From Actinomycetospora chiangmaiensis DSM 45062 (GTDB lineage: Bacteria; Actinomycetota; Actinomycetes; Mycobacteriales; Pseudonocardiaceae): a stretch of DNA of 64,000 bases. Location: NCBI RefSeq assembly GCF_000379625.1, contig NZ_KB903246.1, positions 62,001-126,000 on the forward strand, read 5' to 3'. The notes beneath the pieces were generated by a model. It saw only the letters and a list, made by a program, of their open reading frames with translations, ran no database searches and had not been told where the DNA came from. The position numbers and the translations under genes are program-made. Of this stretch, positions 20,583-41,210 are shown piece after piece. How positions within the stretch are numbered: the first letter of the stretch is position 1; each line of letters begins with the position of its first letter.

Positions 20583-21251
20583 TCAGCCGGCCAGCGCCAC
20601 CGACGCCCGGTACCGGTCGACCAGCAACGACGCGACCGCCGGGTGGTCCCCCAACGGCTCGGCGACCACCGCGGCGCCCACGGCGGACGCCCAGCGGTGG
20701 AACACTCCCGGGGCGAGCAGCCACGTCAGCAGGGCCACCGGCCCGTCCTGGGCCGCCACGACCTCCGCCAGCCGCGGGTCGCCCCCCGCGACGTAGCCGA
20801 CCGGCACCGCGGCACCCACCCGCTCCCGCATCAGGTCGGCGGCGACCCGCAGGTCGGCCTGCGCCACCGGGTCGGTCGACCCGGCCGCGGCGAGCACGAC
20901 CCGCTCCGAGCGCCACCCGGCGTCGCGCAGCCGTGACAGCGCCGCGTCCACCAGCACCGCGTCGGGGCCCAGTGGCTCGGTCACCCGCACGTCGGTCCGG
21001 CCGAGCGCGGCCAGCTGGTCCGGCACGTCGCGGCGCACGTGGAAGCCCGACGCGAGGAACGCCGGGACCACGACGACGGGTCCCGGGTCCAGCTTCGGCA
21101 GCAGGTCCGCCAGCTGTGGTCGGGCCACGCCCGCCCAGGCCAGCCGAACCCCGACGTCCGGGACCAGCGACCGCACCCGCGTGAGCAGCGCACCCCACGT
21201 CGCCCGGCCGGCCGGGTCGTTCGTGCCGTGCGCGAGGACCACGAGCGTCAC
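20583..21251 (-). CDS. cbiX: Sirohydrochlorin chelatase, CbiX family
   Basis: 222 residues; class II chelatase that would insert Fe2+ into sirohydrochlorin to make siroheme for NirB and the NirA-like fusion. MTLVVLAHGTNDPAGRAT carries the metal-binding His, repeated as VVVVPAFLASGFHVRRDVP in the middle. Two homologous halves are visible. Last gene of narK-nirB-nirD-hemD-cbiX. GTG start at 21251, within a 16-base direct repeat that also contains the hemD stop. Confidence 0.88.
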   Translation of the reverse strand: MTLVVLAHGTNDPAGRATWGALLTRVRSLVPDVGVRLAWAGVARPQLADLLPKLDPGPVVVVPAFLASGFHVRRDVPDQLAALGRTDVRVTEPLGPDAVLVDAALSRLRDAGWRSERVVLAAAGSTDPVAQADLRVAADLMRERVGAAVPVGYVAGGDPRLAEVVAAQDGPVALLTWLLAPGVFHRWASAVGAAVVAEPLGDHPAVASLLVDRYRASVALAG

Positions 21252-21283
21252 GAGGACGCCGCCCCGCTCACGAGGACGCCGCC
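21248..21283. repeat. Tandem duplication at the hemD-cbiX junction
   Basis: TCACGAGGACGCCGCC occurs at 21248-21263 and again at 21268-21283 (period 20). One copy holds the hemD stop, the other the cbiX GTG start and an unused TGA, as if an ancestral GTGA overlap had been duplicated. Confidence 0.8.
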
Positions 21284-22122
21284 ACGTGCTCCTCCAGGCG
21301 CTTCACCATCGCTCCCAGCCGGAACCGCTCCGGCGCGATCGACGGGACGTCGAGCCGGTCCAGCGGGGCCGCGGTGACCGGCCCGACCGCACACGCGAGC
21401 ACGCCGTCGCGGAACGCGGCCACGACGTCCGGGGCCGACCCGGTCGCCTCCGCGCGGTGGAACAGTCCCTCCACCGCCGGCGCGGACGTGAAGGTCACGA
21501 CGTCGACCTCCCCGTCCACGATCGCCGCGATCAGCGCGTCGACCGCCGGCAGGTCCGGCGGCGGCTCCCACCGGTAGACGTGCACCTCGACGACGTCCGC
21601 CCCGGCCTCGCGCAGGGCCTCGAGGAAGGAGGTCATGGGGTCGCCGTGCAGCTGCACCGCGACCCGTCGTCCGGACACCCCCACGTCGAGCAGGTGTTCG
21701 AGCACCTCCGGCGACGACTCGGTCTCGTCGGCCGACCAGACCTCGCGGAGCCCGGCGCCACGGATCGCACCGCGCGCCTTCGGGCCCCGCGCCAGCACCT
21801 CCGCGGAACCGAGCACCTCCCGCAGTCGCTCCCCGAGACCCCACTCGTCGGCGACCTCGAGCCAGCCGCGGAAGCCCTGCCCGGTGGTCGCGACGACGAC
21901 ATCGGGCGGGGTGTCGACCAGCCCGCGGGTGACGTCCGCGAGCTGCGAGTCGTCGGCGAGGGGCACGATCCGCATCGTCGGCCCGTGCACCGTCGTCGCG
22001 CCCTTGCGGTGCAGGAGCTCGATCTGGTCGTCGGCGCGGCGGTCGGCGGTGACGCCGACGCGCACGCCCCCGAGCGGACCCGCGACCCGGGTCGTGTCCT
22101 GCGCGACAGCGTCCTCCGTCAT
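21268..22122 (-). CDS. hemD: Uroporphyrinogen-III synthase-like protein of the nitrite operon
   Basis: 284 residues with the two-domain HemD fold: VRVGVTADRRADDQIELL, VVATTGQGFRGWLE, HLLDVGVSGRRVAVQLHGD, VDVVTFTSAPAVEGL, ACAVGPVTAAPLDRL. Supplies the tetrapyrrole for siroheme. In M. tuberculosis the homologue beside CbiX and NarK3 (Rv0260c/NnaR) carries an extra C-terminal winged-helix domain and acts as a regulator; here the protein stops right after the HemD fold (LEEHVAASS), so that DNA-binding part is absent. ATG at 22122 overlaps the nirD stop. Confidence 0.85.
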   Translation of the reverse strand: MTEDAVAQDTTRVAGPLGGVRVGVTADRRADDQIELLHRKGATTVHGPTMRIVPLADDSQLADVTRGLVDTPPDVVVATTGQGFRGWLEVADEWGLGERLREVLGSAEVLARGPKARGAIRGAGLREVWSADETESSPEVLEHLLDVGVSGRRVAVQLHGDPMTSFLEALREAGADVVEVHVYRWEPPPDLPAVDALIAAIVDGEVDVVTFTSAPAVEGLFHRAEATGSAPDVVAAFRDGVLACAVGPVTAAPLDRLDVPSIAPERFRLGAMVKRLEEHVAASS

Positions 22123-22550
22123 GGGCTCCCGACCTCGACCGTCCCGTCCACCACCCGCACAGGATAGGTCGCCACCACCACGTCGGAGTCCTCGAGCGCC
22201 ACGCCCGACTCCAACGCGAAGTGCTGCTTGTGCAGCGGCGAGGCCACCACCGCCGTCCCGCCGAGGTCCCCGACGATGCCGCGCGAGAGCACGGAGGCCC
22301 GGGAGAACGGGTCGACGTTGTGCAGGGCGAACAGCCGGTCGTCGTGGGTGCGGAACACCGCCACCGGCTCGCCGTCGACCAGGGCGCACACCCCACGCTC
22401 CGGCTGGAGCTTCGCCAGGGGGCAGACCGCGGTCCATCCCGTTCCCGACGGCGGGGCCGCGGGGGTCGCCGGGGTCGGCTGCGGGTCCTTGGACTCGGCT
22501 CCGTCGGTCGAGCCGGAGGGGTGCTGGCGAACGTCGGCCTGCGCGGTCAT
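22119..22550 (-). CDS. nirD: Assimilatory nitrite reductase (NADH) small subunit NirD
   Basis: 143 residues. After a low-complexity, Pro/Thr-rich 45-residue lead, a Rieske-like fold follows (TAVCPLAKLQPERGVCALV, VAVFRTHDDRLFALHNVDPF, ASPLHKQHFALESG, YPVRVVDGTVEV). The positions where Rieske proteins carry Cys/His ligands are replaced, as is normal for NirD. Overlaps nirB and hemD by ATGA junctions. Confidence 0.9.
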   Translation of the reverse strand: MTAQADVRQHPSGSTDGAESKDPQPTPATPAAPPSGTGWTAVCPLAKLQPERGVCALVDGEPVAVFRTHDDRLFALHNVDPFSRASVLSRGIVGDLGGTAVVASPLHKQHFALESGVALEDSDVVVATYPVRVVDGTVEVGSP

Positions 22551-25135
22551 GCGGGCGCTCCCATCGGGATCCGGGCTCCGTCGGTGATCGGCACGCCGCC
22601 CAGACCGAGAGCGGCGAGGTCGGTCGGCTGGCCGTCCTTCATCCCCGCCGGCACGCGCCGACCGAGGTGGTCGACGAACTCGATCGTCGGGTCGGGCGTG
22701 CCCGGCGCGTTGACGAACGACGTGAACCGCTCGAGCTTGTCCGGGTCGGCGAGGACCGCGGCCCACTCGTCGGCGTACCCCTCGACGTGGCGCGCCATCT
22801 GCTCGTCGAGCGAGGCGCAGATGCCGAGCGAGTCCTCCATGATCACGTCACGGAGGTGGTCGATACCGCCCTCGAGCGCCTCGATCCACGGCGCGGTGCG
22901 CTGCAGCCGGTCGGCCGTGCGGATGTAGAACATGAGGAAGCGGTCGATCGTGCGGACCAGCGTCGTCGTGTCCAGGTCGGAGGCGATCAGCTCCGCGTGC
23001 CGCGGGGTGAAGCCGCCGTTGCCGCCCAGGTAGAGGTTCCACCCGGTCTCGGTGGCGATGATCCCGAAGTCCTTCGAGCGGGCCTCGGCGCACTCGCGGG
23101 CACAGCCCGACACCCCGGACTTCAGCTTGTGCGGCGAGCGCAGGCCGCGGTAGCGCAGCTCCAGGGCCACCGCGAGCCCGACGGAGTCCTGCACGCCGTA
23201 GCGGCACCAGTCGGTGCCGACGCACGACTTCACCGTCCGCAGCGACTTCCCGTACGCGTGGCCGGACTCGAACCCGGCGTCGACCAGGCGCTGCCAGATC
23301 TTCGGCAGGTCGTCGACGCGGGCGCCGAACATGTCGATCCGCTGGCCACCGGTGATCTTCGTGTAGAGCCCGAAGTCCTTGGCCACCGAGCCGATCGCGA
23401 TGAGGCCCTCGGGCGTGACCTCCCCGCCGGGCAGCCGCGGGACCACCGAGTAGGTGCCGTTGCGCTGCATGTTGGCGAGGAAGTGGTCGTTGGTGTCCTG
23501 CAGCACCGCCGACTCGCCGTCGAGCACGTGGCCCCCGGCGAGCGTCGCGAGCATCGAGGCGACGGCGGGCTTGCAGATGTCGCAGCCCCGTCCGGTGCCG
23601 TACTGCCCGATGATCTCGGAGAACGTCTGCAGGCCCGTCGCCATGACGATCTCGTAGAGCTCGGCGCGCGACTGGGAGAAGTGCTCGCAGAGCGCCTTCG
23701 ACACCTCGACGCCGCAGGACGCGAGCACCTTGCCCAGCGTCGGCACGCAGGACCCGCACGTGGTCCCGGCGCGCGTGCACGCCTTGAGCTGCGGCACCGT
23801 CGTCGCCTCGCCGGAGGCGATCGCCGCGACCAGCGCACCCTTGGTGACCGCGTTGCAGGAGCAGATCTGGGCGCCGTCGGGCAGGGCGTCGATGCCGACG
23901 CCGACTGCGCCGTCGCCCGCCGGCGCGATGAGCGACATCGGGTCGCCGGGGAGCTTCTCGCCGAGGAACCCGCGCAGCGTCTCGTAGTTCGAGGCGTCGC
24001 CGACGAGGATGCCGCCGAGCAGGGTCTGCGCGTCGTCGGAGACGACGAGCTTGGAGTAGGTCCCGGCGACCGGGTCGTTCAGCGTCACCTCGAGCGCGCC
24101 GGCGGTGGCCGCGTGGGCGTCGCCGAAGCTCGCCACGTCCACGCCGAGCAGCTTGAGCTTGGTCGACAGGTCGGCCTCGGTGAAACGGCCGTCCCCGCCG
24201 GTCAGGCGCTCGGCGACGACCTCGGCCATCGCGTAGCCGGGCGCGACGAGGCCGTAGGTGCGGCCCTTGACCGCCGCGACCTCGCCGATGGCCCACACGT
24301 GCTCGTCGGAGGTCCGGCACCGCTCGTCGACCAGCACGCCGCCGCGCTCCCCGACCTCGAGCCCGACCTCGCGGGCCAGCGAGTCGGCGGGCCGGATGCC
24401 CGCGGAGAAGACGACCACGGACGCGTCGAGCTCGGTGCCGTCGGACAGCGTGACCGTCAGGCCGCCGCGGTGGTCCTTCGCGATCGAGCTGGTGGAGACG
24501 CCGGTGTGCACCCGCAGACCGAGCTCCGAGACCAGCCGCGCGAGCAGCGCCCCGCCGCCCTCGTCGACCTGCACCGGCATGAGCCGGGGCGCCATCTCCA
24601 CGACGTGCGGGGACAGGCCCAGCTGCCGCAGCGCGTTCGCCGCCTCGAGCCCGAGCAGGCCGCCCCCGACGACGACGCCGGCCCGCCGTCCCGCGCCCGC
24701 CGTCGAGACCGCCTTCTCGGCGGCCGCGCGCAGCCCGTCGAGGTCCTCGAGGGTGCGGTAGACGAAGACGTTGTCGAGGTCGCGGCCGGGGACCGGCGGC
24801 ACGAACGGGACGCTGCCGGTGGCGACGACGAGCTCGTCGTAGGCGACGTCCCGGCCCTTCGCGGTGCGCACCGTCCGGGCGGCGAGGTCGACCGCGGTGA
24901 CCGGCTCGTCGAGGTGCAGCTCGACCAGCGGGTCGCTGTGCTCGTCGAGGGTGAGGTCCTCGGCCGAGGCGTCGCCCACGTAGGACGACAGCGCGACCCG
25001 GTCGTAGGCCGGCCGGTTCTCCTCGGCCAGCACCACGATCTTCCAGGCGTCGTCGGTGTCCAGCCGGCGCAGGCTCTCGACGAACCGGTGCCCGACCATC
25101 CCGTGGCCGACGACGACGACCGTGCGGGCGTTCAT
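22547..25135 (-). CDS. nirB: Assimilatory nitrite reductase (NAD(P)H) large subunit NirB
   Basis: 862-residue cytoplasmic enzyme that reduces nitrite to ammonium using six electrons from NAD(P)H. N-terminal FAD/NADH module (VVVVGHGMVGHRFVE; GVVVGGGLLGLEAA; VWAIGEVA). Central BFD-like [2Fe-2S] region near 420-475 (ICSCNAVTKGAL, CTRAGTTCGSCVP). C-terminal siroheme-[4Fe-4S] domain with CX5C in SCVGTDWC (near 638) and CX3C in SGCAREC (near 676). ATG at 25135 with GGGAG upstream. Transcribed after narK, from which it is separated by a hairpin. Confidence 0.95.
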   Translation of the reverse strand: MNARTVVVVGHGMVGHRFVESLRRLDTDDAWKIVVLAEENRPAYDRVALSSYVGDASAEDLTLDEHSDPLVELHLDEPVTAVDLAARTVRTAKGRDVAYDELVVATGSVPFVPPVPGRDLDNVFVYRTLEDLDGLRAAAEKAVSTAGAGRRAGVVVGGGLLGLEAANALRQLGLSPHVVEMAPRLMPVQVDEGGGALLARLVSELGLRVHTGVSTSSIAKDHRGGLTVTLSDGTELDASVVVFSAGIRPADSLAREVGLEVGERGGVLVDERCRTSDEHVWAIGEVAAVKGRTYGLVAPGYAMAEVVAERLTGGDGRFTEADLSTKLKLLGVDVASFGDAHAATAGALEVTLNDPVAGTYSKLVVSDDAQTLLGGILVGDASNYETLRGFLGEKLPGDPMSLIAPAGDGAVGVGIDALPDGAQICSCNAVTKGALVAAIASGEATTVPQLKACTRAGTTCGSCVPTLGKVLASCGVEVSKALCEHFSQSRAELYEIVMATGLQTFSEIIGQYGTGRGCDICKPAVASMLATLAGGHVLDGESAVLQDTNDHFLANMQRNGTYSVVPRLPGGEVTPEGLIAIGSVAKDFGLYTKITGGQRIDMFGARVDDLPKIWQRLVDAGFESGHAYGKSLRTVKSCVGTDWCRYGVQDSVGLAVALELRYRGLRSPHKLKSGVSGCARECAEARSKDFGIIATETGWNLYLGGNGGFTPRHAELIASDLDTTTLVRTIDRFLMFYIRTADRLQRTAPWIEALEGGIDHLRDVIMEDSLGICASLDEQMARHVEGYADEWAAVLADPDKLERFTSFVNAPGTPDPTIEFVDHLGRRVPAGMKDGQPTDLAALGLGGVPITDGARIPMGAPA

Positions 25136-25206: not shown

Positions 25207-26598
25207 TCACACGGACGCGTACGAGACCTTCGAGCCCGTCGTCGGGTCGGTCGCCGCCTTCGCGTTGCGCATGTAGACGAGGTAGGTCACGACGAAGCAG
25301 ACGGCGTAGAAGGCGAGGAACGCCCAGAACGCCGGCACGCCGCTCTTCACGGTGAGGAATGACTGGCGGAAGGCCAGGTTGATCAGCAGCCCGCCGAAGG
25401 CGCCGATCGCGCCGGCGATGCCGATCACGGCGCCGGAGATGCGTCGCGCCCAGAGCAGCGCCGCGTCCTGGTCCCATCCCTTGCTCTCCGACGAGGCCAG
25501 GGCCTTCGTCCGGAAGATCGCCGGGATCATCTTGTAGACCGAGCCGTTGCCGATGCCCGAGGTGATGAACAGCAGGGTGAAGCCGACGACGAACAGCGCG
25601 AGCGACTTCTGCCCCGACGCGACGATGCAGAGCAGCGAGGCGACGGCCATCGCGACGAAGTTCCAGAAGGTGACCTTCACGCCGCCGATGCGGTCGGAGA
25701 GCCAGCCGCCGACGGGGCGGATGAGCGACCCGAGCAGCGGGCCGATGAAGGTCAGGGTCGCGGCCTGCAGCGGGGTGCGGCCGAACTGGTTCTGCAGCAC
25801 GAGCCCGAACGCGAAGCTGTAGCCGATGAACGAGCCGAAGGTGCCGATGTAGAGGAAGGAGATGACCCAGGTCTGGGCCTGGCTCGTGGCCTCCTTGAGT
25901 GCCCCGGTGTCGTTGCGCACCGAGCTCAGGTTGTCCATGAACAGCGCGCAGGACAGCGTCGCGATCACGACGAGCGGGATGTAGATCCCGAGCAGGATGC
26001 GGATGCCGCCCACGCCGCCGCCCGCCGTCGCGAGGATGAGCAGCCCGAGCAGCTGGATCACCGCGACGCCGAGGTTCCCGCCGCCGGCGTTGAGGCCGAG
26101 CGCGTAGCCCTTGCGGCGGTCGGGGAAGAAGGCGTTGATGTTGGTCATCGAGGAGGCGAAGTTGCCGCCGCCGACGCCCGCGATCGCCGCGAGCACCATG
26201 AGCGTCGTGTAGCTGACGCCGGGCTGGACGATGAACGCCGCGAGGATCGTGGGGATCAACAGCAGGGCCGCGGCGATGATCGACCAGTTGCGGCCGCCGA
26301 ACACCGCGACGGCCATCGTGTAGGGCAGGCGGAGGAACGAGCCGATCAGCGTCGGCATGGCGACGAGGAAGAACTTCCCGGCCACGTCGAGCCCGAAGAC
26401 GTCGTTCGGCATGAAGAGCACGAGGACCGACCACAGGGTCCAGATCGAGAACCCGATGTGCTCGGAGAACACCGAGAACCACAGGTTCCGGTTCGCGACC
26501 CGCTTGCCGCCGCCCTCCCAGAAGGACTCGTCCTCCGGGCGCCAGTCGTCGATCCACCGACCCCGGATCAGCCCCTCGGACCTCGCGGCCACCGTCAT
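25207..26598 (-). CDS. narK: Nitrate/nitrite transporter, NarK/NasA type MFS
   Basis: 463 residues with about 12 membrane segments. The nitrate signature is visible in both halves: AAIAGVGGGNFASSMTNIN and ITSGIGNGSVYKMIP. N-terminal WIDDWRPEDESFWEGGGKRVANRNL is typical of actinobacterial NarK. It feeds the downstream NirBD; no nitrate reductase catalytic gene is in the window, so the substrate could be nitrite, nitrate or both. ATG at 26598. Confidence 0.93.
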   Translation of the reverse strand: MTVAARSEGLIRGRWIDDWRPEDESFWEGGGKRVANRNLWFSVFSEHIGFSIWTLWSVLVLFMPNDVFGLDVAGKFFLVAMPTLIGSFLRLPYTMAVAVFGGRNWSIIAAALLLIPTILAAFIVQPGVSYTTLMVLAAIAGVGGGNFASSMTNINAFFPDRRKGYALGLNAGGGNLGVAVIQLLGLLILATAGGGVGGIRILLGIYIPLVVIATLSCALFMDNLSSVRNDTGALKEATSQAQTWVISFLYIGTFGSFIGYSFAFGLVLQNQFGRTPLQAATLTFIGPLLGSLIRPVGGWLSDRIGGVKVTFWNFVAMAVASLLCIVASGQKSLALFVVGFTLLFITSGIGNGSVYKMIPAIFRTKALASSESKGWDQDAALLWARRISGAVIGIAGAIGAFGGLLINLAFRQSFLTVKSGVPAFWAFLAFYAVCFVVTYLVYMRNAKAATDPTTGSKVSYASV

Positions 26599-26736
26599 CT
26601 CGTCGTCCTCCGCCTCGCCGGGAACGTCCCGTTCGGGGGGACGTCGTCTCGGCGGGGACGCTAGGAAGCGCCCGTTACGCGGCGATGACAGCGTGTTTCG
26701 GTGGAACGACGGTCGAAGAGCGCACCGTCACGGTTT

Positions 26737-28764: not shown

Positions 28765-29943
28765 ATGGATCGTTCCCGACCGGTCGAGGTCGTCGCCACC
28801 GACGGGTCCGCGGCGGCGGCCCGGGCCCTCGGCGAACGTCTCGTCGCCGCCGTGTCGGGGCACGGGCCGGCGGTGCTGCCCACCGGCCCCGACGACGCGC
28901 CCCCGCCCGCGCGGTTGAGGGCGCCGGTCGCGCCGGGCGTCGCCGCGGTGGTCACGACGTCGGGCTCCACCGGCGTTCCGAAGGCCGTCCTCCTCTCGGG
29001 GACCGCCCTCGCCGCGTCGGCGACCGCCACCGCCGCCCGCCTCGGCGGGGAGGGCCGCTGGCTGCTCGCCCTCCCCGCGCACCACGTCGCCGGGGTCCAG
29101 GTGCTGCTGCGCTCCGCACGGGCCGGGGTGCCGGCCGCCGTGATGGACCTGCGCGACGGGTTCCGCCCGGACGCCTTCGCGGACGCCGTGGCCGCCGCCC
29201 GCCCTACGGTCACACGGCTCTCGCTGGTGCCCACCCAGCTGCGGCGGCTGCTCGACGACGCGCAGGACGGGACCGGCCGCGGCCTCGACGCCCTGCGCGG
29301 GTTCGGGGCCGTGCTGGTCGGCGGGGCCGCCGCCGAGGCCGCGCTGCTGCACCGCGCCCGGGCCGCGGGCGTGCGGGTGGTGACGACCTACGGCATGAGC
29401 GAGACCTGCGGCGGCTGCGTGTACGACGGCGTGCCGCTGGACCGGGTCACGCTGGACATCGAGGACCAGGACCCGTCCGGCGCCGGACGGATCGTGCTGG
29501 GCGGGGCGACCGTCGCCGAGGGCTACCAGGGCCTCGACGACCCCGCGTTCCTCCCGGGCCGCCGGTTCCGGACGTCCGACCTCGGACGGGTACTCCCGGG
29601 CGGCCGGCTCGAGGTGCTCGGCCGGGCCGACGACGTCATCGTCACCGGCGGCGAGAAGGTGCCCCCGGTCGTCGTCGAGCAGGCGCTGCTCACCGTGCCC
29701 GGGGTGCGGGAGGCCTGCGTGGTCGGGGTGCCGGACCCCGAGTGGGGCGCCCGGGTGGTGGCCGTGGTGACCGGCGCCGGACTGGAGCCCGAGGCGGTAC
29801 GCCGCGAGGTCGACTGGCTCGGCCGGGCGACGCCGCGGGCCGTGCGGGTGCTCGACGAGCTGCCGCTGCGGGGCATCGGCAAGCCCGACCGGGCCGCGGT
29901 GCGTGATCTGTTCGCCGTGGAGGGCGGAGCAACACGGGCGTAA
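28765..29943 (+). CDS. menE: o-Succinylbenzoate-CoA ligase MenE
   Basis: 392-residue AMP-forming ligase that activates o-succinylbenzoate with CoA. Motifs: VTTSGSTGVPKAVLLSG (P-loop), TTYGMSETCGGCVYDG, FRTSDLGRVLPGGRLEVLGRADDVIVTGGEKV, and the C-terminal catalytic Lys in GIGKPDRAAVR. Short relative to many ligases, as is typical for actinobacterial MenE. The ATG at 28765 shares CATG with a possible menC start on the other strand. Followed after 23 bases by the GlnR-NirA fusion gene. Confidence 0.9.
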   Translation: MDRSRPVEVVATDGSAAAARALGERLVAAVSGHGPAVLPTGPDDAPPPARLRAPVAPGVAAVVTTSGSTGVPKAVLLSGTALAASATATAARLGGEGRWLLALPAHHVAGVQVLLRSARAGVPAAVMDLRDGFRPDAFADAVAAARPTVTRLSLVPTQLRRLLDDAQDGTGRGLDALRGFGAVLVGGAAAEAALLHRARAAGVRVVTTYGMSETCGGCVYDGVPLDRVTLDIEDQDPSGAGRIVLGGATVAEGYQGLDDPAFLPGRRFRTSDLGRVLPGGRLEVLGRADDVIVTGGEKVPPVVVEQALLTVPGVREACVVGVPDPEWGARVVAVVTGAGLEPEAVRREVDWLGRATPRAVRVLDELPLRGIGKPDRAAVRDLFAVEGGATRA

Positions 29944-29966
29944 CCGCCGGGTGATGACATGGCCGG

Positions 29967-32435
29967 GTGCACCTGCTCCTGCTCACCGGGGCGTCCTCGG
30001 TCGACGAGGTGCTCCCCGGACTCGCGATGCTGCCCGACCACCGCGTCACGCTCGGCGCGCTGACGGCGGCCGAGGCCGTCACCTCCGCGGTGGACGTCGA
30101 CGCGGTCCTGCTCGACGCCCGCACCCGGCCCTTCGCGGCCGCCGAGCTCGCCGCCACCGTGGACGCGACCCGTCCCGGGCTGCCGGTCGCCGTGGTGGTG
30201 GGGCCGGACGCGGCGTTCCCCGTCGAGGACGACGTGCCGGTGGACACGCTGCTGCTGCCCGACGCGTCGCCCGCCGAGGTCGCGGCCCGTCTGCGCCTGC
30301 TCGCCCGCCCGGTGCCGCCGGCCCCACGCCCGCGTCGGGACCGGCGCCCCGCCGCGCCGCCGCCGGGCGCGCTCGTCGTCGACGACCTCGTCGTCGACAC
30401 CGTCGCCTACCAGGCCTTCCTCGCGGGGCGCCCGCTCGCGCTGGCCCGCCGCGAGCTGGAACTGCTCGCCGCGCTCGCCGCGCGTCCCGGCCGCCCCGCC
30501 ACCCGCGCGGCCCTGCTCCGCCACGTGTGGGGCCGCGACTACGAGGGCAGCGCCCGCACCGTCGACGTCCACGTCCGGGCCCTGCGCCGGGTCCTCGGGC
30601 CCCCCCACCGCGACCTGATCCGCACCCTGCGCGGGGTCGGCTACGCCCTCTTCCCGACGACGGGTGCGGCGACGGTCCCCGACCGCGTCGCCCCGCCCGC
30701 GCGGGTCGCCGCACCGCTGCGCCCGGACGAGGCCCTCGACGCCCCGTCGTCCCCGGCCCGGCCGGGCGGCCGCGACGCGCCCGGCGACGTCGTCGCGAGC
30801 AAGCGCGCCGGGCTGCCGCTGGACCTCGACGCCGTGGCGGAACCGGCCCGGCTGGGCGCCCTGGAGCGCTACAGCCTGAAGACACTCGGGGCGTGCTCGG
30901 AGCGCGAGGACGGGCTGTTCCTGCTGCGCGCCCGGACCCGCGGGCGGGTGCCGGCCGCGGCGGTACGGGCGCTCGCCGCCCTCCTGCGCGAGCGCGATCT
31001 CGGCCCGGTGCACCTCACCACCCGGCAGCAGCTGGAGCTCCAGGACGTGCCGGCGGCGCTCGTCGTCGGGACCCTCGACGCCCTGCACACGGCGGGCCTC
31101 GACACCGACGCGACGTGCGGGCACACCGTCCGCGGCGTCACGAGCTGCCCGGACGCCGGGGTCTCGGCCGAGGAGCCGTTCGACTGCACGCCCGACGCGG
31201 AGCAGCTCACCGACTCGCTGCTGCGCCTCGGACCGGAGCTGAACACGCGGCTCCCCCAACGGTTCTCGGTGAGCCTGGGCGGCTGCCCCGGCTGCCGCGC
31301 CCAGGCCAAGATCTCCGACGTCGGGCTCGTGTCGGTCCTCGACGACGACGGCCGCCCCGGCTACGAGCTGTGGGTGGGCGGCGGGCTCGGCCGCTCCCGG
31401 CCGACGCTCGCGACCCGGCTCGCCGGTTTCGTCCCCCGCGAGGGCCTGCTCCCGGCCGTGCACGCCGTGCTGGCGGTCTTCCTCGCGCACGGCGCCTTCG
31501 AGAGCCCGAACCGCGCGCGGCTGAAGTTCCTCGTCGCCCGGCTCGGCCCCGACCGGTTCCGCGCGCTGGTCTCCGAGGCCGAGACCGACCTGTCCGCGCG
31601 GGCGTGGCCGCCGCCCGCCCCGCTGCCCGCGGTCCGCGCGCCCGGTGTGCCCGAGGGACCGGCCCCGCCCGACGGCTGGGGTGACGACGTGCGCCCGCAG
31701 CACACGCCGGGGCTCGCGACCGTGACGGTCACGGTGCCGCTCGGAAGCCTGTCGGCGGCGGCGCTCGACGTGCTGGCCGAGGTCGCCGAGGACCACGCCG
31801 ACGGGGTGGTCCGGCTCAGCCGCGAGCAGAACGTCGTGCTGCGCGACGTGACGGTCGACGACGTCGGGGCGGTCGCCGCCCGGGTCGCCGCGGTAGGCCT
31901 GGCCGTGCACACCCACCGGCCGGCCCGCGACGTCCGCGCCTGCGTCGGCGCCGCCTCGTGCGCGCTCGCCATCACCCCGACCCGCGACCTCGCCCGCGTC
32001 CTGTGGCACCTGCCCGCCCTGCGCCGGAACTCCCGCGTGGCCGTGAGCATCTCCGGCTGCCCCGCCTCCTGCGCCCGCCACCAGGCCGCCGACCTCGGCC
32101 TCGCCGGCAACCTCGTCTCGGTCCGCGGCCGGCGCGTGCCCGGCTACCGCGTGCACCTCGGCGGGGACCTCGGCCGCGACCGCATCGGCACGGTGCTCGG
32201 TCGGGTCGCCGAGGACCAGGTGCCCCTGCTCGTCGACCAGGTGGTGCGCATCTGGGAGGACCTGCGCGTGGGCCACGAGACCCTCGCCGACAGCGTCGCC
32301 CGCACCGGCCTGGAGCCGTTCGTGTCGGCGTTGCGAGGCCTGCCCGGCCTGGCGTGGGAGGCCGGGGACGACGAGGGTCCGGGTCGGCCGTCGCTGCCCC
32401 TGATGCCGGTCCGCTCCCGGTCCTCGGTGTCCTGA
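29967..32435 (+). CDS. GlnR-type nitrogen regulator fused to NirA-like siroheme nitrite/sulfite reductase
   Basis: 822 residues in one uninterrupted frame. Residues 1-115 match the atypical receiver of actinobacterial GlnR (MHLLLLTGASSVDEVLPGLA; LLDARTR with D50 and R52, the GlnR dimer residues). Residues 130-230 are its winged helix (ARRELELLAALAARPGR, LLRHVWGRDYEGSARTVDVH, TLRGVGYALF). A Pro/Ala-rich linker of about 45 residues begins on an exact copy of the 15-mer repeat. Residues about 280-800 are a two-repeat NirA/SirA-type reductase (GYELWVGGGLGRSRPTLATR, RARLKFLVARLG) with a full CX5C (C659, C665) and CX3C (C698, C702) siroheme-[4Fe-4S] set. Lies between menE and menB, near nirBD. Whether it is enzyme, sensor-regulator or both is unknown. 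Confidence 0.9.
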   Translation: MHLLLLTGASSVDEVLPGLAMLPDHRVTLGALTAAEAVTSAVDVDAVLLDARTRPFAAAELAATVDATRPGLPVAVVVGPDAAFPVEDDVPVDTLLLPDASPAEVAARLRLLARPVPPAPRPRRDRRPAAPPPGALVVDDLVVDTVAYQAFLAGRPLALARRELELLAALAARPGRPATRAALLRHVWGRDYEGSARTVDVHVRALRRVLGPPHRDLIRTLRGVGYALFPTTGAATVPDRVAPPARVAAPLRPDEALDAPSSPARPGGRDAPGDVVASKRAGLPLDLDAVAEPARLGALERYSLKTLGACSEREDGLFLLRARTRGRVPAAAVRALAALLRERDLGPVHLTTRQQLELQDVPAALVVGTLDALHTAGLDTDATCGHTVRGVTSCPDAGVSAEEPFDCTPDAEQLTDSLLRLGPELNTRLPQRFSVSLGGCPGCRAQAKISDVGLVSVLDDDGRPGYELWVGGGLGRSRPTLATRLAGFVPREGLLPAVHAVLAVFLAHGAFESPNRARLKFLVARLGPDRFRALVSEAETDLSARAWPPPAPLPAVRAPGVPEGPAPPDGWGDDVRPQHTPGLATVTVTVPLGSLSAAALDVLAEVAEDHADGVVRLSREQNVVLRDVTVDDVGAVAARVAAVGLAVHTHRPARDVRACVGAASCALAITPTRDLARVLWHLPALRRNSRVAVSISGCPASCARHQAADLGLAGNLVSVRGRRVPGYRVHLGGDLGRDRIGTVLGRVAEDQVPLLVDQVVRIWEDLRVGHETLADSVARTGLEPFVSALRGLPGLAWEAGDDEGPGRPSLPLMPVRSRSSVS
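30651..30665 (+). repeat. Copy of 15-mer TTCCCGACGRCGGGT
   Basis: Exact copy located exactly where the GlnR domain ends and the linker begins, encoding FPTTG. Confidence 0.65.
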
Positions 32436-32484
32436 CCGAAGGGCACCGTCGCTCGATCTACCCGACCGACGGTGCCCTTCGGTC
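32434..32484. terminator. Hairpin after the GlnR-NirA fusion gene
   Basis: Perfect 18-base arms (32434-32451, 32467-32484) containing GAAGGGCACCGTCG, starting at the stop codon. Typical actinobacterial terminator without U-tract. Confidence 0.75.
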
Positions 32485-32630
32485 GGCCCGGGAGGAGCCC
32501 ACCGCCGCGTACGCCGTGTCGACGGCGAGGAAGACCAGCAGGCTCACCCCGCGCGGACGACGGTCCGGTTCCCGCGTCGGGTCCCCGTCACGTCCGCGGC
32601 TCGGGGACCGGACGCCTAGGGTCGCTCCTC

Positions 32631-33533
32631 GTGGACGAACCGCTCTTCGACAGCTCGGTCTGGCGCCCGGTGGAGGGCTTCGACCTCACCGACATCACGT
32701 ACCACCGCTCGGTCGAGCTGGGATGCGTGCGCATCGCCTTCGACCGGCCCGAGGTGCGCAACGCGTTCCGCCCGCACACCGTCGACGAGCTCGCGACGGC
32801 GCTGGAGCACGCCCGAACGAGCGCCGACGTCGGCGTCGTCCTGCTCACCGGCAACGGCCCCTCCCCGCGCGACGGCGGCCACGCGTTCTGCTCCGGCGGC
32901 GACCAGCGCATCCGCGGGCGCACGGGCTACCAGTACGCCTCGTCGGAGACCGCGGTCAGCGCCCAGGAGCAGGGCCGCGCGGGCCGGCTGCACATCCTCG
33001 AGTGCCAGCGGCTGATCCGCTTCATGCCGAAGATCGTCATCGCCGTCGTCAACGGGTGGGCGGCGGGCGGGGGCCACTCGCTGCACGCCGTCTCCGACCT
33101 CACCCTGGCGAGCGCCGAGCACGCCCGGTTCAAGCAGACCGACGCCGACGTGGGGTCGTTCGACGGCGGGTACGGCTCGGCCTACCTCGCCCGCCAGGTC
33201 GGGCAGAAGTTCGCCCGCGAGATCTTCTTCCTCGGCCGGACCTACACCGCCGAGCAGATGCACCGCATGGGCGCGGTCAACGAGGTCGTGCCGCACGCGG
33301 AGCTGGAGACCACCGCGCTGCAGTGGGCGCGGGAGATCCTCGGCAAGTCCCCGCAGGCCCAACGGATGCTGAAGTACTCGTTCAACCTCGTCGACGACGG
33401 GCTGGTCGGCCAGCAGCTCTTCGCCGGCGAGACCACACGCCTCGCGTACATGACCGACGAGGCCGTGGAGGGCAAGGAGTCGTTCCTGGAGAAGCGCGCG
33501 CCCGACTGGTCGCCGTTCCCCTGGTACTACTAG
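32631..33533 (+). CDS. menB: 1,4-Dihydroxy-2-naphthoyl-CoA synthase MenB
   Basis: 300-residue crotonase-fold enzyme that closes the naphthoquinone ring in menaquinone synthesis. FCSGGDQRIRGRTGYQY is the MenB-specific region, IAVVNGWAAGGGHSLHAVSDLTLAS the oxyanion region, KQTDADVGSFDGGYGSAYLARQVG the active-site Asp/Ser block, and YSFNLVDDGLVGQQ plus the C-terminal RAPDWSPFPWYY are conserved. GTG at 32631. Separated from menE by the fusion gene and a hairpin. Confidence 0.93.
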   Translation: MDEPLFDSSVWRPVEGFDLTDITYHRSVELGCVRIAFDRPEVRNAFRPHTVDELATALEHARTSADVGVVLLTGNGPSPRDGGHAFCSGGDQRIRGRTGYQYASSETAVSAQEQGRAGRLHILECQRLIRFMPKIVIAVVNGWAAGGGHSLHAVSDLTLASAEHARFKQTDADVGSFDGGYGSAYLARQVGQKFAREIFFLGRTYTAEQMHRMGAVNEVVPHAELETTALQWAREILGKSPQAQRMLKYSFNLVDDGLVGQQLFAGETTRLAYMTDEAVEGKESFLEKRAPDWSPFPWYY

Positions 33534-37088: not shown

Positions 37089-41054
<3,966 letters not shown>

Positions 41055-41210
41055 CTCGTTCCGGTCACGTCGCCGAGGTCCCGACGGTGGCATTGCACGG
41101 TGGGTCATCACACTCGGGTGGTACGTCGGGTTTCCGCCCGTTGATCGTCACGGTCCGGAGCAACGGGACCGGACTTGCGGGCGCCCGGTGAACACCGTCA
41201 CGGTTCCGGT

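Follow-up and report, generated by a model that had tools for sequence, protein, structure and literature searches.

A single open reading frame in the window (the whole 64,000-nucleotide stretch of Actinomycetospora chiangmaiensis DNA analysed here) encodes a complete GlnR-type regulator followed by a full-length siroheme nitrite/sulfite reductase, as the first-pass annotation had proposed. The frame runs on the plus strand from a GTG at 29967 to a stop at 32435 (822 codons), and the full fusion occurs in 7 of 18 Actinomycetospora genomes, the window's own included, at 63-88% identity. We tentatively favor the reading that the 822-residue product is a GlnR-derived siroheme regulator of narK-nirBD that would sense nitrite or a related compound and possibly still be catalytic.

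The plus-strand frame divides into four parts. Residues 1-112 (29967..30302) form a GlnR_1st receiver-like domain carrying D50 and R52 (Pfam 68 bits, cut-off 27), and residues 154-228 (30426..30650) form a Trans_reg_C winged-helix DNA-binding domain (81 bits) that aligns with the resident GlnR. A variable joint (residues 230-268, 30654..30770) leads into the reductase module (residues 269-822, 30771..32435), which is built of half domains, a pair of the ferredoxin-like kind (NIR_SIR_ferr, 89 bits in two stretches) and a pair of NIR_SIR (148 bits in two stretches), and carries the cluster ligands C659-X5-C665 and C698-X3-C702. All Pfam families reported on the fusion score above their curated cut-offs. 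D50, R52 and the four cysteines are invariant in six aligned fusions and the seventh (L021) likewise carries the cluster cysteines, so that the receiver pair and the intact CX5C/CX3C set recognized at first pass hold across six and all seven proteins, respectively. The nearest solved structure to the first half is 8hig (E 7e-36), titled as an OmpR family regulator, which we take to be a GlnR, and that to the reductase half is NirA (1zj8, E 5e-39).

The regulator half is a diverged paralogue of GlnR rather than GlnR itself, as it had first been named. A separate, normal glnR, whose existence the first-pass annotation had left to be checked, is present in the same genome (272 residues, G000:C1:441901); it scores 148 bits for the GlnR domain versus 71 for the fused domain and is 47% identical to the fused half. 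The fusion shares with GlnR the GlnR_1st plus winged-helix arrangement, D50/R52 and a similar length of that half, and retains the RTVDVHV..LR..LG stretch. It differs in that GlnR, a free global regulator of about 220-270 residues, has no reductase. The fused half was matched in 98 of 100 family genomes (E 1e-28), outside the genus by one match each at 41-50% identity, and no free GlnR paralogue nearer to it was found in these 100 genomes at that limit. In a quick tree of 35 GlnR rows, which drew a long-branch warning for an Agromyces row, the seven fused halves form one group (SH-aLRT 100). The half has also evolved quickly: between the window and L014 it is 58% identical, versus up to 86% for resident GlnR across genera (L001 to L137).

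The reductase half, first described as NirA/SirA-type, belongs by a quick tree to a separate clade and not to the usual Sir/NirA type. It shares with NirA/Sir reductases (PDB 1zj8, 3b0g) the domain order, the siroheme/[4Fe-4S] cysteines and the siroheme arginines, all retained, but is only 32-36% identical to the Sir-type genes of the family, has LPQR[FL][ST] in place of the LPRK[FY]K motif found in 69/69 ordinary rows, and has a regulator attached. Its score for the NCBIfam NirA-family equivalog (183.5 bits) lies below the cut-off of 523, a test that says little here because the resident Sir/NirA-type enzyme also fails it at 315 bits. CobG (precorrin-3B synthase) is likewise a member of the NIR_SIR superfamily, but the fusion scores 130 bits against the NCBIfam CobG cut-off of 234.8, and a separate CobG-like gene (105 bits, itself below the cut-off) adjoins a CobN-like gene elsewhere in the genome. 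The genome further holds a 588-residue Sir/NirA-type gene, nirB at the narK locus and a second NirB (705 bits, cut-off 578). We therefore rejected the idea that the reductase half is the genome's own CobG, Sir or NirB, and with a normal glnR and these siroheme-family genes located elsewhere the fusion is an extra protein.

Closer relatives of the reductase half stand alone and lie outside the class. Among 100 family genomes the only close matches are four same-genus fusions, the others listed being the Sir-type genes mentioned above; among 197 class genomes (103 matching at E 1e-60) the best other matches reach about 250 bits with a profile of six fusions. Among 198 phylum genomes (10 matching at E 1e-70), six reductases score 507-529 bits with the fusion-reductase profile (G394, G404, G424, G438, G463 and G483). 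A quick tree of 54 rows unites these six with the seven fusions (SH-aLRT 100) and sets them off from the 36 rows of ordinary Sir type, with a warning of meeting long branches that includes the one leading to this very group. The starts of the stand-alone sisters, such as MTPNIPAAKRAGLP, align with the fusion stretch RDAPGDVVASKRAGLP, placing the sisters' start codon at the joint; a whole reductase has thus been joined to a whole GlnR. No further fusion beyond the genus was seen, judged by match and open frame, in the 100 family genomes (E 1e-30), in the 197 class genomes (E 1e-60; frames up to 739 residues) or in the 198 phylum genomes (E 1e-70), all of which are samples searched at strict limits. 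In a plasmid collection the best match is 36% identical; the best named plasmid relative, from Thermus oshimai (36%), sits amid sulfate-assimilation genes and so points to sulfite as much as to nitrite.

The genes around the stand-alone sisters vary. In G438 a 395-residue HEM4 plus Trans_reg_C gene (L132:9122-10309) lies between an MFS transporter gene and the reductase, with a molybdopterin oxidoreductase gene also nearby; in G404 and G463 the reductase is again near molybdopterin oxidoreductase genes, and in G404 also by a 2Fe-2S ferredoxin gene. The sisters at L127 and L131 adjoin a molybdopterin-binding oxidoreductase gene (Oxidored_molyb in L131) together with small cysteine-rich and Rieske-like frames, perhaps another electron-transfer set. 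The question of whether relatives have two separate genes, which had been named as grounds for doubting the fusion, gets a mixed answer: the frame is fused in the seven genus genomes that have it, and in other classes the same kind of reductase stands alone and in one case directly follows an NnaR-type gene. The fusion suggests that regulator and reductase genes, neighbors in this one stand-alone case, can merge.

Near the siroheme, two lysines of the ordinary enzymes (K and K in 69/69 rows), which we take to correspond to K215 and K217 of the E. coli enzyme, are replaced by R and S/T in 7/7 fusions and by R and N in 6/6 sisters. These changes may reflect altered or lost chemistry. As proof of a dead enzyme they are weakened by the same arginine in the stand-alone sisters, and asparagine at the second site, as in the sisters, is known from plant nitrite reductase, so the change is no such proof. 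We also discarded the idea that extra cysteines in the first half mark a unique second cluster, similar cysteines being present in several ordinary members from the class.

The joint frame is real and conserved. A sequencing error hiding a stop or frameshift, raised at first pass as a possible refutation, is ruled out because the same fused frame stands in six other genomes of the genus, and the chance that two genes were merged by a misassembly or a frame error is close to nil. In the G004 fusion the single in-frame TAG is the gene's own terminal stop. A related-locus search returned seven loci, five of them complete fusions (63-88% identity) from named Actinomycetospora genomes and two matching one half only, and the remaining 11 of the 18 genus genomes gave only partial matches. 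The seven fusion proteins align end to end, with invariant columns making up 34% of the receiver, 56% of the winged helix, 64% and 56% of the two reductase halves and 20% of the joint. In a tree of four neighboring genes the seven fusion genomes and G010 form one supported clade, and the distribution of the fusion on this tree requires two changes; in G010, a 59%-complete assembly inside the clade, the fusion was not found.

Both halves of the fusion look to be under selection, as judged from a simple count of dN/dS. When the window is paired with each of its four close relatives (L011, L012, L021 and L013) the ratios are 0.06-0.16 for the receiver, 0.19-0.37 for the winged helix, 0.10-0.24 for the reductase halves, 0.00-0.22 for the hinge and 0.19-0.51 for the joint. 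The pair L014/L015 gives 0.40 for the receiver, 1.25 for the hinge, 0.18 for the winged helix, 0.31 for the joint and 0.21-0.23 for the reductase, and the far pair window/L014 gives 0.32-1.00, with 0.54-0.61 over the GlnR half.

The fusion lies between menaquinone genes, a few kilobases from nitrite genes as first reported. On the minus strand, a CbiX/SirB-like chelatase gene (20583..21251) is followed by a HemD-like gene (21268..22125), a nirD-like Rieske_2 small-subunit gene (22119..22550), nirB for the nitrite reductase large subunit (22547..25135; 1050.7 bits, cut-off 578) and an MFS_1 transporter gene (25207..26598) named narK from its sequence. Next come a gene with no Pfam match and, on the minus strand, menC. 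On the plus strand are a menE-like AMP-binding gene (28765..29943), the fusion, and directly downstream a menB-like enoyl-CoA hydratase gene (32631..33533), the start codons of both men genes being assumed. The fusion begins 23 bases after menE and lies 3-5 kb from nirD-nirB (22119-25135) and narK, with menE, menC and one more gene between it and narK; it is perhaps read with menE and not with nirBD. The 17 other genus genomes have the same order within reach of the locus, except where nirBD is absent and, in G010, where narK is absent and a NirD remnant is present. Both nirB and nirD are found at the narK locus in 7/7 fusion genomes versus 3/11 others, an association that is not independent evidence because the fusion marks one clade. 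Seven genus genomes (L163, L164, L165, L166, L169, L171 and L172) have hemD and narK side by side with no nirBD between. The menE-menB interval is itself a variable spot holding different genes by species (window 29943-32631; L166, L167, L172, L173, L011-L013); of the seven fusion-less genomes (of eleven) in which it was measured, three have menE and menB 370-441 bases apart and four have 3-8 kb between them, occupied by other frames.

Two putative GlnR-like boxes, GTCGTTCCACCGAAAC and GTCATCGCCGCGTAAC, lie 21 bases apart on the minus strand (26674..26710) and end 75 bases before narK. The published GlnR box of S. coelicolor is gTnAc-n6-GaAAc, with variants elsewhere. Regions upstream of narK were aligned for 17 genus genomes, G010 having no such gene. 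In 14/17 the second box departs from GTNAC-n6-GAAAC at no more than 2 positions, and in L014 at 3; in L167 and L173 the assumed narK start codon falls within this box, which is therefore truncated. The first box matches less well, with 0-3 mismatches in 7/7 fusion genomes, and appears among the best three listed sites of only 5/10 others. A relaxed tandem-box pattern, written after the site was seen, has the narK site as its single match in the window. The suggested link to nitrogen promoters thus gains conserved candidate sites. Fusion-less genomes have these boxes too, and the protein acting at them may be the resident GlnR alone, the fused protein or both.

Another known regulator comparable to the fusion is NnaR. 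In passages of PMC10704036, PMC6277429 and PMC11162112 it is described as a HemD domain joined to a DNA-binding domain of OmpR type; it works together with GlnR on nitrite genes including nirB, and its HemD part is enzymatically inactive in S. coelicolor; how it senses its signal is called a mystery in a passage of the 2024 NnaR paper (PMC11162112). NnaR, so described (PMC11162112, PMC6277429), resembles the fusion in pairing a tetrapyrrole-related enzyme domain with an OmpR-type winged helix and in its location near narK-nirBD. In the fusion, however, the enzyme part is a C-terminal siroheme reductase and the regulator a whole N-terminal GlnR, and the Pfam scan gave no HEM4 match, so that the HemD plus C-terminal winged helix that defines NnaR is lacking.

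The HemD-like gene in the window occupies the position of mycobacterial nnaR and lacks a winged helix, as does its counterpart at the narK locus in 18/18 genus genomes, whether or not these have the fusion (judged from the C-termini, two of them also scanned). A genus-wide search at E 1e-8 gave one match per genome (L071-L087 and window 21268-22125) and found no HemD-winged-helix gene in the 18 genomes; the sole other HEM4 protein of the window's genome also lacks a winged helix. Among the best 28 family loci outside the genus (60 genomes searched) a winged helix is in frame in 25 and absent in 3, and 15/15 second HemD-like copies fetched from family genomes are short and without one. A quick tree of 61 rows places the genus gene in a group by itself, within the half containing 25/25 winged-helix rows and 7/18 short rows, and attaches it firmly to neither kind. 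Short second copies are common in the family, and the genus gene may be such a short HemD-like paralogue rather than a trimmed NnaR; the genus may thus have lost either the entire NnaR gene or only its winged-helix part. We dropped the scenario that the fusion took over from an NnaR deprived of its winged helix, since the HemD-like gene lacks that domain in all 18 genomes and 15/15 second copies are short. The fusion might compensate for a missing NnaR; the lack of an NnaR-type gene in the search extends to the 11 genomes without the fusion.

In the mechanism that we propose, a complete siroheme-[4Fe-4S] reductase from a separate clade would have been fused to the end of a GlnR paralogue, and the product retained as a dedicated regulator of nitrate/nitrite use. 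The GlnR half would dimerize and bind GlnR-type boxes, such as the pair before narK-nirBD, the reductase half would bind nitrite (or NO, or sulfite) at its siroheme, and the siroheme ligand or redox state would alter DNA binding or activation. Such a regulator would serve a genus in whose 18 genomes no NnaR-type gene was found. We infer from sequence the cofactor, ligand and DNA target, as well as the direction of control and any continued turnover. The more specific proposal, that a siroheme-[4Fe-4S] transcription factor measures nitrite (or NO, or sulfite) by binding or turnover and fills the nitrite-signal role of NnaR, is rather doubtful.

A siroheme-based regulator of nitrite genes nevertheless appears the likeliest of the readings, followed by one in which the protein is mainly a working enzyme. 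There it would be a further (ferredoxin-dependent) nitrite or sulfite reductase, with a GlnR part that anchors it to DNA or enables control of its own and neighboring genes, as in a trigger enzyme. The full-length reductase with all cluster ligands and the dN/dS of 0.10-0.24 over its halves in the close pairs are consistent with this, as are sisters that, in the manner of enzymes, neighbor molybdopterin oxidoreductase genes, an MFS transporter gene or, in G404, a 2Fe-2S ferredoxin gene. Against it, the genome already has nirBD, a second NirB and a Sir/NirA-type enzyme, and the two active-site lysines are replaced in 7/7 fusions, yet the arginine at the first is common to 6/6 sisters; we regard this reading as possible but somewhat less probable.

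It is unlikely that the GlnR half is a leftover or dimerization handle on a plain, non-regulating reductase. Its faster evolution than true GlnR (58% for window/L014 versus up to 86% across genera) and its dN/dS of 0.54-0.61 for that pair would fit such a fate, but in the close pairs both receiver and winged helix show constraint (0.06-0.37), the RTVDVHV..LR..LG stretch is preserved and none of the seven fusion genomes has the gene split. More improbable still is a regulator of other genes, for example the men (menaquinone) genes, in which the reductase would sense redox state or sulfite: the fusion does lie between menE and menB, close behind menE in the window, but the interval is not the same from species to species, and several have other genes there.

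No GlnR-reductase fusion or siroheme-bearing transcription factor is described among the open-licence literature matches listed, and we know of no earlier transcription factor with a siroheme-[4Fe-4S] center. With a DNA-binding and a putative nitrite-binding half in one chain, the protein would make nitrite sensing in actinobacteria addressable on a single purified protein. Elsewhere in the window, a 1340-residue frame on the minus strand (37089-41111) encodes a single chain that combines a polysaccharide deacetylase domain with glycosyltransferase 2 and acyltransferase 3 domains.
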